Shown: positions 10,545 to 19,571 of the stretch, in pieces
Layout: every line of letters starts with the position of its first letter
How positions within the stretch are numbered: the stretch's first letter is position 1
Assembly (NCBI RefSeq): GCF_014269225.2
Contig: NZ_CP077097.1
Location: 2,305,001 to 2,369,000, forward strand
Direction: 5' to 3'
Source of the DNA: Pseudomonas anuradhapurensis
GTDB taxonomy: Bacteria; Pseudomonadota; Gammaproteobacteria; Pseudomonadales; Pseudomonadaceae
Length of the DNA stretch: 64,000 bases
The notes under the pieces: model-generated
Told to the model about the DNA's origin: nothing
The model's database searches: none
Seen by the model: the letters and a program-made list of their open reading frames with translations, nothing else
Program-made: the position numbers and the translations under genes

Positions 10545-11108
10545 CTAGCGAATGAAGTGCACCTTGCCGGTGTCGTCATTGCCCATGTAGATGCCGTACA
10601 CCCCGGCTTGCCGCTCGAGAATGTAGCGCTCCAGAATCTGCCGGATCGCTGGGTAGTAGATGTCGTCCCAGGGGATATCGTCGGGCTCGAAGAACTTGCA
10701 GGCCAGTGTTTCCGCCCCGTATTGCCCGGTTTCCTCGGTGGCGATGGCGCGGAAGATGATGTACACCTCGCTGATCTGCGGCACGCTGAAGATCGAGTAC
10801 GGCGAGACGATCTCGGCGCGTACGCCGGTTTCTTCCCAGACTTCGCGCAAGGCTGCCTGTTCGGTGGTCTCCCCGGCCTCCATGAAGCCGGCGGGCAAGG
10901 TCCAGGTGCCCGGGCGCGGCGGGATGGCGCGCTGGCATAGCAGGTATTTGCCATCGCGCTCGATGATGCAACCGGCGATGATCTTCGGGTTGATGTAGTG
11001 GATGTAGCCGCAGCCGGTGCAGTGCAGGCGTTCGTGGGTGTCGCCTGTGGGAACGCCCCGGGCCAGTTCCATGGTGCAGTGTGGGCAGTAGCGCGGGGCG
11101 TTGGGCAT
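10545..11108 (-). CDS. Nudix hydrolase with N-terminal zinc ribbon
   Basis: The 187-residue protein begins with a C4 zinc ribbon (CPHC...CTGCGY, residues about 8-35) and continues into a Nudix domain with an intact box, [23 protein letters not shown]. This arrangement recalls NudC-like and ADP-ribose/NADH pyrophosphatases, so a nucleotide diphosphate substrate is likely. The stop of the upstream GntR gene lies only 2 bp before its ATG, which places it at the distal end of the catabolic operon; whether it serves that pathway or nucleotide housekeeping is unclear. Confidence 0.85.
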
Positions 11109-11110
11109 GG

Positions 11111-11863
11111 TCAGCGGCCTATGCGGGGTTCCTTGAGGGCCAGGGGCTCGACGATATCGCGCACCTTGGTATTGTCATCCTGCTTATGGCGCAGGTAGTC
11201 CAGGGCGACCTTGGCCGCGGCGCGGACGTGATCGACCGAGGCCTGGTGGGCTGCCAGCGGGTCGCCGCTCTTGATCGCCTCGACGATCTTTTCCATTTCC
11301 CGGTTGCTGGCGCCGCGGCGGTTTTCCTGCGATACCGAGGTGGCGCGCAGGTAGCTGATGCGGGCCTGCAACTGGCGCAACTGCTGGGCTGCCACCTGGT
11401 TGCCGGAGCCCTCCAGCAGTACATCGTAGAAGCCTTGTACCGAATCCAGCACCTGTTGCAGCTCGCCTTCTTCGAGGGCCTCGCGGTTGACTTCCAGTGC
11501 GCGCTCCAGGGCACGGATGTCCTTGGCCTTGGCGTTGAGGGTGAACAGTTGCACGATCAGGCCTTCGAGCACGCAGCGCAGTTCATAGATGTCGCGGGCG
11601 TCTTCGAGGGTAATGATGGCCACGCGCGGGCCCTTGGCATCGGCGAACTCCACCAGGCCTTCCGACTCCAGGTGGCGCAGGGCCTCACGCACCGAGGTGC
11701 GGCTGACGCCGAGGCGGTCGCAGAGGTCGCGCTCGACCAGGCGGTCGCCCGGCAGCAGGTGGAAGTTCATGATCGCGGCGCGCAGCTTGTCGAGCACGAT
11801 TTCGCGCAGGGTAACGGGGTTGCGGTTGACCTTGAAACTGTCGTCGAGTGGCAGGCGTTTCAT
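11111..11863 (-). CDS. GntR family regulator, FCD (FadR/VanR) subfamily
   Basis: The 250-residue regulator has an N-terminal winged HTH ([29 protein letters not shown]) and an all-helical FCD domain with the usual metal/ligand-facing residues ([14 protein letters not shown]...). FCD regulators normally bind TnGTnnnACnA palindromes. Three such sites (TGGTATACCA or one mismatch) occur at 15994, 17903 and 18076 in the promoters of this cluster. It is therefore the best candidate for the pathway-specific regulator, probably a repressor released by the substrate or an intermediate. Confidence 0.9.
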
Positions 11864-11953
11864 CGAGTGCGCTCTGAAAGAGGCTGCCCGACCGCAACTG
11901 CAACAGCACCACGAACCTCGGGTGCTCCTTGCATGGGTTCGAACAGCCCGGTG

Positions 11954-12343
11954 TTAACGGGTTGACTCCGCATCGGCTTCGGCGAACGCTTCGCGGGCCA
12001 GGCGGAAGCTGTCCACCGCCGCGGGCACGCCGCAATAAATGCCGACCTGGAGCAGGATCTCGCGAATCTGTTCACGGCTCAGGCCATTACGCAATGCGCC
12101 GCGAATGTGCAGCTTGAGCTCGTGGGGCCGGTTGAGCGCGGAAATCATGGCCAAGTTTATCATGCTGCGCTCTTTCAGCGACAAGCCTTCACGACCCCAG
12201 ACGTGGCCCCAGCAGTATTCGGTGACCAGCTCCTGCAACGGTTTGGTGAAGTCGTCGGCGTTCTGGATTGAGCGATTGACGTAGTCCTCGCCCAGCACCT
12301 GGGTGCGGATCTGCAGGCCTTTCTCGTACTTTTCAGTGCTCAT
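11954..12343 (-). CDS. Carboxymuconolactone decarboxylase family protein (PcaC-like)
   Basis: The 129-residue protein matches the single-domain gamma-carboxymuconolactone decarboxylase family, with WGREGLSLKERSMINLAMISALNRPHELKLHIRGAL and the C-terminal GVPAAVDSFRLARE. The true PcaC step belongs to protocatechuate breakdown, but no other pca gene is near. Here it more likely performs a related decarboxylation, isomerisation or hydrolysis in the flavin-dependent pathway. It lacks the CxxC pair that marks AhpD-type peroxidatic members, unlike the protein at 20677. Confidence 0.87.
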   Translation of the reverse strand: MSTEKYEKGLQIRTQVLGEDYVNRSIQNADDFTKPLQELVTEYCWGHVWGREGLSLKERSMINLAMISALNRPHELKLHIRGALRNGLSREQIREILLQVGIYCGVPAAVDSFRLAREAFAEADAESTR

Positions 12344-12377
12344 GGGCAGTGCTCCGGAAAAATAGGGTCATCGGTAT

Positions 12378-12472
12378 GGGCTTCTTCGCGGGCTTGCCCG
12401 CTCCCACAGGGATCGCATAGATACTGAAACCTGTGCAGGACCTGTGGGAGCGGGCGAGCCCGCGAAGAAGCC
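12378..12472. repeat. REP doublet inside the catabolic operon
   Basis: gggcttcttcgcgggcttgc... (12378-12412) is mirrored by ...cgggcgagcccgcgaagaag (12441-12472): a head-to-head P. putida REP pair. It splits the operon between the flavin reductase and the decarboxylase-like gene and could attenuate expression or stabilise the upstream mRNA. Confidence 0.9.
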
Positions 12473-17845: not shown

Positions 17846-17902
17846 CGGGGTGTACCTCTGAAGGGCTGCGGTGGTCCGCGGTTTTTATCGTTGATGTGTC
17901 TG

Positions 17903-17930
17903 ATGGTATACCGTAATACCTATTTTGCAA
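17903..17930 (-). promoter_or_regulatory. Promoter with GntR operator 2 (flavin reductase-LLM operon)
   Basis: ATGGTATACCGT (17903-17914) matches operator 1 except for one base. On the minus strand TTGCAA (17925-17930), a 16-nt spacer and TACCAT (17903-17908) repeat the promoter geometry of the DUF1185 operon. The shared block continues as TGTCTGATGGTATACC, also seen at 15989-16003. Confidence 0.72.
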
Positions 17931-18063
17931 GCGGAATTTTCACGCTCACGGTTATCGCGATGGGCGGCGCAAGGCCACGAATGCTGCGGGTTTGGCTGCC
18001 AAGCAGGTTCGCCGCCATGGCTTTGCAAACAGATCAGTGGGCAGTTTTTCCTGCGGATCAGTG

Positions 18064-18094
18064 TTGTCAAAAGTTTGGAATACCATAATATGGT
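18064..18094 (+). promoter_or_regulatory. Promoter with GntR operator 3 (NCS1 permease)
   Basis: TTGTCA (18064-18069), 16 nt, then TAATAT (18086-18091) form the permease promoter. TGGAATACCA (18076-18085), one mismatch from TGGTATACCA, fills the spacer, and a second palindrome ACCATA-A-TATGGT (18082-18094) overlaps the -10. The 17846-18164 interval is thus a divergent control region and holds no gene. Confidence 0.7.
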
Positions 18095-18164
18095 CCGCAG
18101 CTGAGAGGCCGCCTTGATGCGGTTTCCTTACAAAGATAAAAACGACCTTTCGAGCTGAAATCCT

Positions 18165-19571
18165 ATGTCCCAACCGTCGTCGCAACACCCGTTTGTCGAG
18201 AACCACACGGTCGATTACGTTCCACCTGCCGAGCGCCACGGGAAGGCGCGCGACCTGTTCACCCTCTGGTTCAGTACCAACATCGCGCCACTGCCCATCG
18301 TCACTGGCGCCATGGTGGTCCAGGTGTTCCACCTGAACCTGCTGTGGGGGCTGGTCGCCATCGTGCTGGGCCATCTTGCCGGGGGCGTGGTGATCGCCCT
18401 GGCCTCTGCGCAGGGACCGCAGCTGGGCATTCCGCAGATGGTGCAGAGCCGTGGCCAGTTCGGCCGCTACGGCGCACTGCTGATCGTGTTCTTCACGGCG
18501 CTGATCTACGTCGGCTTCTTCATTTCCAACATCGTCCTGGCAGGCAAGACCATCCATGGCATTGCCCCGGGCGTGCCGATGCCGGGCGCGATCGTGATCG
18601 GCGCCCTGAGCGCCACTGCCATCGGCGTGATCGGCTACCGCTTCATCCACGTGCTCAACCGCATCGGTACCTGGGTGATGGGCTCGGCGCTGCTGGCCGG
18701 CTTCATCATGATGTTCGCCCAGGCGCTGCCGGCCGATTTCTTCAGCCGTGGCGCATTCAACCTGTCGGGCTTCATCGCCACGGTGTCGCTGGGCACCATC
18801 TGGCAGATCAGCTTCTCGCCGTACACCTCCGACTACTCGCGCTACCTGCCGCGTGAAGTAGGCATTGCCAAACCGTTCTGGGCGACCTATTTCGGCGCCA
18901 CCCTGGGCACCATCCTGTGCTTCAGCTTCGGTGCAGTGGCGGTGCTGTGCGTGCCCGAGGGCACCGATGCGATGGATGCAGTCAAGCAGGCCACCGGCTG
19001 GCTGGGCCCGATCCTGATGGTACTGTTCCTGCTCAACATCATCAGCCACAACGCCCTCAACCTGTATGGCGCGGTGCTGTCGATCGTCACCGCGATCCAG
19101 ACCTTCGTCGCGGCGTGGACGCCGAGCATCAAGGTGCGGGTAATGCTGGCAGCGTTGATTCTGCTGGGTTGTGGCCTGGTGGCGCTGAATGCTTCGGCAG
19201 ACTTCATCGGCCAGTTCATCGGCCTGATCCTGGCCCTGTTGCTGGTGCTGGTGCCGTGGGCGTCGATCAACCTGATCGACTTCTACCTGATCAAGAAAGG
19301 CCAGTACGACATCGCCTCGATCTTCCGTGCCGACGGCGGCATCTATGGCCGCTTCAACCACCACGCGATCATCGCCTACGCCTGCGGCATCCTGGTGCAG
19401 CTGCCGTTTGCCAATACCTCGCTGTATGTGGGGCCGTATTCGAACATCATCGAAGGGGCCGACCTGTCGTGGCTGTTCGGCTTGCTGGTGACGGTGCCGC
19501 TGTATTACTGCCTGGCCACTCGTGGCAACGCTGGCGAGAAGGCGGGGCGGGTAGTGAGTGTCAATGACTGA
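18165..19571 (+). CDS. NCS1 family N-heterocycle permease of the catabolic cluster
   Basis: The 468-residue, roughly 12-TM NCS1 permease has HTVDYVPPAERHGKARDLFTLWF, SRGAFNLSGFIATV and SDYSRYLPREVG blocks and is a clear paralogue of the 6818-8230 permease. It is divergent from the LLM/flavin reductase operon and shares the GntR-type operator motif, so it most likely imports the pathway substrate. NCS1 members carry nucleobases, hydantoins, allantoin and vitamins, which points to a nitrogen heterocycle. A GC hairpin at 19591-19607 follows the stop. Confidence 0.88.
   Translation: MSQPSSQHPFVENHTVDYVPPAERHGKARDLFTLWFSTNIAPLPIVTGAMVVQVFHLNLLWGLVAIVLGHLAGGVVIALASAQGPQLGIPQMVQSRGQFGRYGALLIVFFTALIYVGFFISNIVLAGKTIHGIAPGVPMPGAIVIGALSATAIGVIGYRFIHVLNRIGTWVMGSALLAGFIMMFAQALPADFFSRGAFNLSGFIATVSLGTIWQISFSPYTSDYSRYLPREVGIAKPFWATYFGATLGTILCFSFGAVAVLCVPEGTDAMDAVKQATGWLGPILMVLFLLNIISHNALNLYGAVLSIVTAIQTFVAAWTPSIKVRVMLAALILLGCGLVALNASADFIGQFIGLILALLLVLVPWASINLIDFYLIKKGQYDIASIFRADGGIYGRFNHHAIIAYACGILVQLPFANTSLYVGPYSNIIEGADLSWLFGLLVTVPLYYCLATRGNAGEKAGRVVSVND

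Follow-up and report, generated by a model that had tools for sequence, protein, structure and literature searches.

A probable trigonelline-type catabolic regulon of a divergent clade in Pseudomonas anuradhapurensis

Trigonelline (N-methylnicotinate) is a plant betaine and a common plant vitamin derivative. In Acinetobacter baylyi, it is reportedly degraded through the tgnABCDEF pathway attributed to Perchat (2018), in which aldehyde oxidation is said to precede amide hydrolysis, and the Sinorhizobium meliloti plasmid pSymA presumably carries a further trigonelline region, trc. Extracts of published papers state that trigonelline breakdown starts with ring opening by TgnA/TgnB, that the compound has also been measured in marine particles (PMC8269262), and that TgnF, the Acinetobacter homologue of DUF1185 proteins, was reported to stimulate succinate-semialdehyde oxidation, every attempt to obtain a comparable effect with HcdD having failed (PMC7913881). 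Here we analyzed a gene cluster at positions 10545–19571 of a 64,000-nucleotide stretch of Pseudomonas anuradhapurensis DNA (contig NZ_CP077097.1, positions 2,305,001 to 2,369,000; hereafter the window), from a genome consisting of one contig of 5.39 Mb. A first-pass annotation had presented this cluster as an undescribed catabolic regulon and DUF1185 as a protein with no assigned reaction. Our comparison ties the claimed unknown regulon to a plant betaine: the cluster is quite probably a tgn-type trigonelline catabolic regulon of a divergent clade, so that "undescribed" no longer fits, and the effect reported for TgnF means that DUF1185 is not wholly without a reaction. Gene content, homology, co-occurrence and operator-like sites are directly established for the cluster.

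All ten genes named in the first-pass annotation were found as intact open reading frames within 10545–19571, each with a Pfam match above the cut-off. Seven of them form a minus-strand row with intergenic gaps of −4 to 140 bases: DUF1185, an alpha/beta-hydrolase, an aldehyde dehydrogenase (ALDH), flavin reductase A (FRa), a carboxymuconolactone decarboxylase-like protein (CMD), a GntR regulator and a Nudix hydrolase. Flavin reductase B (FRb) and a luciferase-like monooxygenase (LLM) form a second row on the same strand, from which the gene for an NCS1 importer diverges. The whole genome has a single DUF1185 gene and, among the five LLM candidates scored out of seven, one that matches at E ≤ 1e-60.

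As the Acinetobacter-type reference, we used six loci of a genus labelled g116, among which A. baylyi itself was not identified. We infer that g116 is Acinetobacter, since the LLM of one g116 locus is 91–92% identical to three NCBI clusters named "flavin-dependent trigonelline monooxygenase oxygenase component [Acinetobacter]". The six loci carry CMD, succinate-semialdehyde dehydrogenase (SSADH), a protein of about 389 residues, NCS1, ALDH, LLM, flavin reductase, hydrolase and DUF1185 genes, together with divergent GntR and DUF1330 genes. In two of them, the LLM was placed by the LLM search, as overlapping open reading frames kept its row out of the gene list. The protein of about 389 residues, seen in five of the six loci, belongs to no Pfam family and was taken for a porin, judging from its sequence. 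All of these genes but the porin and SSADH have a counterpart either in the window or at a second locus of the same genome described below, and SSADH is encoded elsewhere in the genome.

The oxygenase, ALDH and DUF1185, together with a reductase and a hydrolase of less certain correspondence, link the cluster to the tgn genes of Acinetobacter, and CMD, NCS1, GntR and the operator extend this likeness to the Acinetobacter-type clusters. The LLM (16235–17275, minus strand; PF00296, Bac_luciferase) aligned over its full length with TgnB-type proteins, at 48% identity to the Acinetobacter-type enzyme and 50% to that of S. meliloti, as a member of a neighbouring, second clade in the same module. 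CMD (11954–12343, minus strand) was 75–77% identical to its Acinetobacter-type counterpart, the DUF1185/AA_synth protein and TgnF homologue (15358–15954, minus strand; PF06684, 240.9 bits) 54–58%, NCS1 (18165–19571, plus strand; PF02133, Transp_cyt_pur) 53–57%, and the TgnC-like ALDH (12983–14464, minus strand; PF00171) 51–55% along its full length. Lower identities were obtained for the FCD-type GntR regulator (11111–11863, minus strand; PF00392 and PF07729; 36–37%), the reductases (35–38%) and the TgnD-like hydrolase (14461–15339, minus strand; PF00561, Abhydrolase_1; 32–35%), in which the GxSxG motif is present as GFSMG. Both reductases match PF01613; FRa (12484–12966, minus strand) is a short form with 36–38% identity to the Acinetobacter-type reductase, and FRb (17360–17845, minus strand) lies upstream of the LLM across an 84-base gap. 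The cluster differs from tgn in its LLM clade, its two short reductases, an SSADH outside the cluster, the Nudix gene within the row, and the placement of RibBA, DUF1330 and an ATP-binding cassette (ABC) importer at a distant second locus. The Nudix hydrolase (10545–11108, minus strand; PF00293 and PF14803), with an N-terminal Zn ribbon, is the final gene of the DUF1185 row; its relatives (48–82% identity) adjoin the same GntR in several related loci, and we propose a role in flavin or pyridine-nucleotide turnover.

The neighbourhood search in other genomes that the first-pass annotation had suggested showed that the set recurs. In an order-level sample of 390 genomes, with E ≤ 1e-60 defining a positive LLM, the LLM occurred in 11 genomes and DUF1185 in 17, and all 11 LLM genomes also held DUF1185 (Fisher p = 1.8e-17), the two genes always sharing a contig and lying no more than about 18 kb apart. 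The grouping of LLM and DUF1185 exceeds chance. In the family that includes Psychrobacter (so Moraxellaceae), 35 of 299 genomes held the LLM. Each positive genome had a single match, in the order sample (11/11) as in the Moraxellaceae sample (35/35; one genome is common to both), a tally that is not exhaustive in the 390-genome sample, since only five first-look candidates were scored in many of its genomes. For named genomes, we took the best 80 of at least 552 relatives, ranked against the Psychrobacter-type LLM, so this sample leans to the TgnB clade. Partners were counted by tblastn over the 62 loci whose 10-kb flanks were complete, the 18 with shorter flanks being excluded. DUF1185 and the hydrolase were present in all 62, followed by ALDH (61), flavin reductase (59) and GntR (49); a PotA-type ATPase (28), DUF1330 (15), CMD (14), SSADH (11) and NCS1 (1) were rarer. 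The module is real, widespread, conserved and catabolic, and its outline is already familiar as that of the trigonelline pathway.

DUF1185 also occurs outside this module. Six genomes of the order-level sample held DUF1185 without the LLM, one LLM genome held a second DUF1185, and most DUF1185 genes outside the LLM set were more distant (34–48%) and had other neighbours. Three genomes belonging to one genus (loci L044, L047 and L048) had a setting of ALDH, a short-chain dehydrogenase/reductase and a BNR-repeat-like protein, with the addition of a hydrolase at L047 and a glyoxalase-like gene at L044. Genome G099 (locus L050), with no LLM at E ≤ 1e-60, carried, close to the end of a contig, a DUF1185 69% identical to that of the window and an adjoining Nudix gene (48%), the other partners being absent; this pair is perhaps a remnant or put to a different use. 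The paper on the two solved DUF1185 structures places genes for branched-chain amino-acid transport next to DUF1185 (PMC2954203), and on this account DUF1185 is not restricted to the present module.

The palindrome TATTATGGTATACCATAATA, in variants, precedes all three promoters of the cluster. ATGGTATACCATAATA was found exactly at 15994, ahead of the DUF1185 row (operator 15990–16009), with one mismatch at 17903, ahead of FRb-LLM (17899–17918), and with two mismatches at 18075, ahead of NCS1 (18071–18090), where one half is weaker. Homology upholds the first-pass view of a GntR-controlled regulon with three promoters; we propose that the FCD-type GntR is a repressor that would bind the TGGTATACCA palindrome. 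Relaxing the pattern to ATGGTNNACCAT, with two mismatches allowed, gave no selectivity by itself (25 matches in the window vs 16.8 expected). At the same tolerance, the 16-base pattern matched only the three cluster sites and two places near 2,203–2,204 kb in the whole genome, where the reversed control pattern had no match; three mismatches added one more site, at 3,298 kb. Five of the six Acinetobacter-type loci carry an exact copy of TATGGTATACCATA, which in four cases sits at the promoter from which DUF1185 and GntR diverge; loci of Psychrobacter, Burkholderia, Mesorhizobium and Sinorhizobium have it with no more than two mismatches. Overall, 54 of the 80 named loci had such a site within two mismatches, vs 1 of 80 shuffled loci (one shuffle each).

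In the order-level sample, 9 of the 11 LLM genomes had sites with at most one mismatch, vs 11 of the remaining 379, which had one site apiece (Fisher p = 1.7e-11), and the reversed control gave 10 single matches in the 390 genomes. Every genome with such sites in more than one place (eight genomes) or with an exact site (six genomes) was LLM-positive. We propose that the common operator of the window and the Acinetobacter-type clusters is a defining feature of the tgn set. One palindrome would serve as a sequence test that finds scattered parts of the regulon across alpha-, beta- and gammaproteobacteria. No published description of the operator or of its link to RibBA turned up in literature listings, although none of the searches was aimed at the operator.

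The two places near 2,203–2,204 kb mark a second operator locus, 116 kb before the window cluster, with a PotA-type (polyamine-type) ABC importer, DUF1330 and RibBA. The binding protein of this importer shares 64% identity with its counterpart next to the cluster of Burkholderia multivorans. RibBA is a bifunctional RibB/RibA-type enzyme of riboflavin synthesis and one of three 3,4-dihydroxy-2-butanone 4-phosphate (DHBP) synthase genes in the genome. In the five other genomes of the sample whose LLM is closest to that of the window (G251, G290, G094, G325 and G197), the region held a RibBA 65–83% identical, with the palindrome just upstream (two mismatches in G325 and G197); the RibBA-operator pair is thus found in this genome and its five nearest sampled relatives. 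At the same threshold, RibBA was absent from the other loci searched, including all 80 named loci (18 with short flanks); at the Arthrobacter locus, its place is taken by genes for riboflavin kinase and a Nudix protein. With the operator ahead of RibBA, flavin supply would rise together with the flavin-dependent oxygenase. The NMT1-type ABC genes at 22348–25116 of the window were considered as the cluster importer and rejected, being of a different type from the relatives' polyamine-type importer, which sits 116 kb away with the operator. The region 20557–25116, which encodes an AhpD-like protein with CxxC, an acyl-CoA-dehydrogenase-like protein and this NMT1-type importer with a twin-arginine translocation signal, looks separate and is perhaps sulfonate- or xenobiotic-related.

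Several observations bear on the substrate. Among the 120 relatives listed for the window LLM, the nearest named ones were from Pseudomonas, and four (75–80% identity) carried the JGI label trigonelline monooxygenase; the other displayed names were generic. SSADH lies in or beside the set in the gammaproteobacterial loci L025 and L026 and the Psychrobacter-type L028 (genomes G131, G366 and G363), in all six Acinetobacter-type loci and in Arthrobacter dokdonellae, and the product is therefore likely succinate semialdehyde. A Psychrobacter copy adjoins a betaine/carnitine/choline transporter (BCCT), which suits a betaine substrate. The S. meliloti copy lies on pSymA, near nifT, and shares the order DUF1185–hydrolase–flavin reductase–LLM–ALDH beside an ABC importer; it also has a NIPSNAP protein, and NCS1, CMD and Nudix genes were not annotated in the stretch read. 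With trigonelline as the only source of carbon, a strain lacking pSymA failed to grow, according to an extract of PMC4207669.

The combination of ALDH and a PcaC-like CMD fits a ring bearing a carboxylate. PyrA-type degradation of plain pyridine in Arthrobacter is not known to need an importer, an extra ALDH or a decarboxylase. Such a route, with ring opening to N-(4-oxobutenyl)formamide followed by amide hydrolysis, could account for the clustering of LLM, flavin reductase, riboflavin kinase and SSADH in A. dokdonellae; we nevertheless consider it very improbable for the window cluster, given the near-constant ALDH (61/62 loci) and the recurrent CMD and importers.

The first-pass annotation had drawn an analogy with the Rut pathway. 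Homology upholds its view that an N-heterocycle other than uracil is imported and opened with the aid of FMNH2, and the ring-opening logic of a two-component FMNH2 system is common to both pathways; RutA is only a remote relative, at about 22 bits with the family profile. Opening of a pyrimidine or another Rut-like ring draws on the FMNH2-dependent LLM with its flavin reductase and on a hydrolase that scores weakly as RutD (90 bits vs a cut-off of 238.5). Set against this, the partners are those of tgn and no cluster protein attains a Rut family cut-off, in keeping with the absence of rutB–E claimed earlier; Rut-type pyrimidine opening was accordingly rejected, and we give it almost no credence. 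In the whole genome, no RutA exceeded the cut-off, and the best of five weaker matches reached 80 bits vs 498.

A number of findings weigh against assigning the cluster to trigonelline. The window LLM falls in another clade, with actinobacterial proteins, and has 48% identity to the Acinetobacter-type enzyme and 45–54% to the other proteins of the Acinetobacter-type clade; the LLM tree is unrooted because the outgroup branches were too long, and several of its forks are weak. The Arthrobacter copy combines an LLM 76% identical with an NCS1 only 24% identical, and has no operator within three mismatches. Two LLM-positive genomes, G197 and G281, had no site at up to one mismatch. NCS1 is an inconstant partner, found in 1 of the 62 full-flank named loci, where DUF1330 and the PotA-type importer are commoner. 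The hydrolase and GntR resemble the Acinetobacter-type proteins at just 32–35% and 36–37%, and the TgnA-type protein, at 310 residues, is twice as long as either flavin reductase, the alignments covering about 130 residues. No SSADH of the TgnE type is encoded in the cluster; the best candidate in the genome lies 2.1 Mb away and is 63% identical to the Acinetobacter-type enzyme.

The window-clade LLM may act on a substrate other than trigonelline. By the same chemistry, it would open a different pyridine-3-carboxylate or N-alkyl pyridinium, such as a nicotinate derivative or another betaine, also ending in succinate semialdehyde. The separate LLM clade and the differing importer types agree with this, as does an NCS1 paralogue (6818–8257; 62.5% identical to the cluster NCS1) that adjoins nicotinate salvage genes in the window, namely an NrtR-like repressor, a nicotinamidase-like gene and nicotinate phosphoribosyltransferase; the NrtR-like and nicotinamidase-like genes are both below NCBIfam cut-offs. 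The position of the paralogue is a hint toward pyridine carboxylates. However, the partner genes and operator are the same as in the Acinetobacter-type clusters, each positive genome in the samples has one LLM match among the candidates scored, and ALDH and CMD suit a carboxylated ring, so we regard another substrate as unlikely and trigonelline as the better candidate. More tentatively, the cluster may represent a second clade of pyridine ring-opening LLMs in pseudomonads and actinobacteria, with the pseudomonad GntR palindrome governing ring opening, import and RibBA for extra flavin, CMD acting as a new 2-formylsuccinate decarboxylase, and the clade perhaps using a substrate other than trigonelline; we consider this combined proposal possible rather than probable.

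CMD scored 153.9 bits against TIGR02425 (PcaC), missing the cut-off of 155.7, and lacks CxxC. A protocatechuate-pathway role was rejected because a separate, better PcaC, over the cut-off at 201 bits, is encoded elsewhere in the genome; CMD and the hydrolase share superfamilies with PcaC and PcaD of the beta-ketoadipate pathway and fall below the equivalog cut-offs. We propose that CMD is a 2-formylsuccinate decarboxylase, as the beta-oxo acid that the hydrolase presumably releases has to be decarboxylated, and as this PcaC-like protein without CxxC, distinct from the genome's PcaC, is 75–77% conserved where the LLM is 48%. Given its presence in only 14 of the 62 full-flank named loci, decarboxylation may be spontaneous or served elsewhere. 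The window DUF1185 aligned over its full length with the solved structures 2QTP and 3BYQ, and keeps the Glu-x-Glu-His and Arg-x-His-x-Arg stretches, the second histidine being lost in 2QTP. In BB2672, these two stretches hold interface salt bridges and histidines, according to an extract of PMC2954203.

The function, reactions and substrate of the cluster are inferred from these comparisons, and the pathway may run as follows. The betaine would enter through NCS1 and the ABC importer 116 kb away, and FRa and FRb would produce FMNH2. With this flavin, the LLM would insert oxygen and open the pyridine ring, giving an N-methylformamido aldehyde or lactone, which ALDH would oxidize to N-methylformamido-methylene succinate. 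The alpha/beta-hydrolase would then free formate and methylamine to leave 2-formylsuccinate; the first-pass annotation had placed amide hydrolysis before aldehyde oxidation, the reverse of the order reported for tgn. Loss of CO2, by CMD or spontaneously, would yield succinate semialdehyde, to be converted to succinate by the SSADH coded elsewhere, with DUF1185 as a TgnF-type helper at this end stage. GntR would hold the promoters repressed through TATTATGGTATACCATAATA until the substrate comes, and the same operator ahead of RibBA would couple extra flavin supply to the flavin-dependent oxygenase. The palindrome and its recurrence ahead of RibBA are new here, and the regulon layout is distinctive. 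Three predictions are put forward from sequence: the GntR operator, a decarboxylating role for CMD, and joint regulation of flavin synthesis and the flavin-dependent oxygenase.

Minor features were noted around these genes. A GC-rich inverted repeat at 16090–16130, spotted by eye between the LLM and the DUF1185 promoter, is perhaps the terminator of the FRb-LLM transcript. An AraC-family open reading frame (19627–20574) adjoins the NCS1 gene, and its protein has a short tandem repeat with VALARQPAFAGL twice. The nicotinate salvage region spans 4081–8257; beside the second NCS1 permease, it holds nicotinate phosphoribosyltransferase, the nicotinamidase-like gene and, divergently oriented, the NrtR-like repressor, a Nudix protein. 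Close homologues of this permease in Burkholderia and Paraburkholderia (78–80% identity) adjoin FAD oxidoreductase, RidA, DUF1028 and ArgE-like genes in three of the four regions opened; the fourth (Klebsiella, 82%) differs. In the present genome, the sole DUF1028 gene lies at 2,884–2,902 kb (L200) with open reading frames that appear ArgE-like and RidA-like by eye, no NCS1-like frame being noticed there, and we take this region to be possibly another methylated-pyridine pathway.

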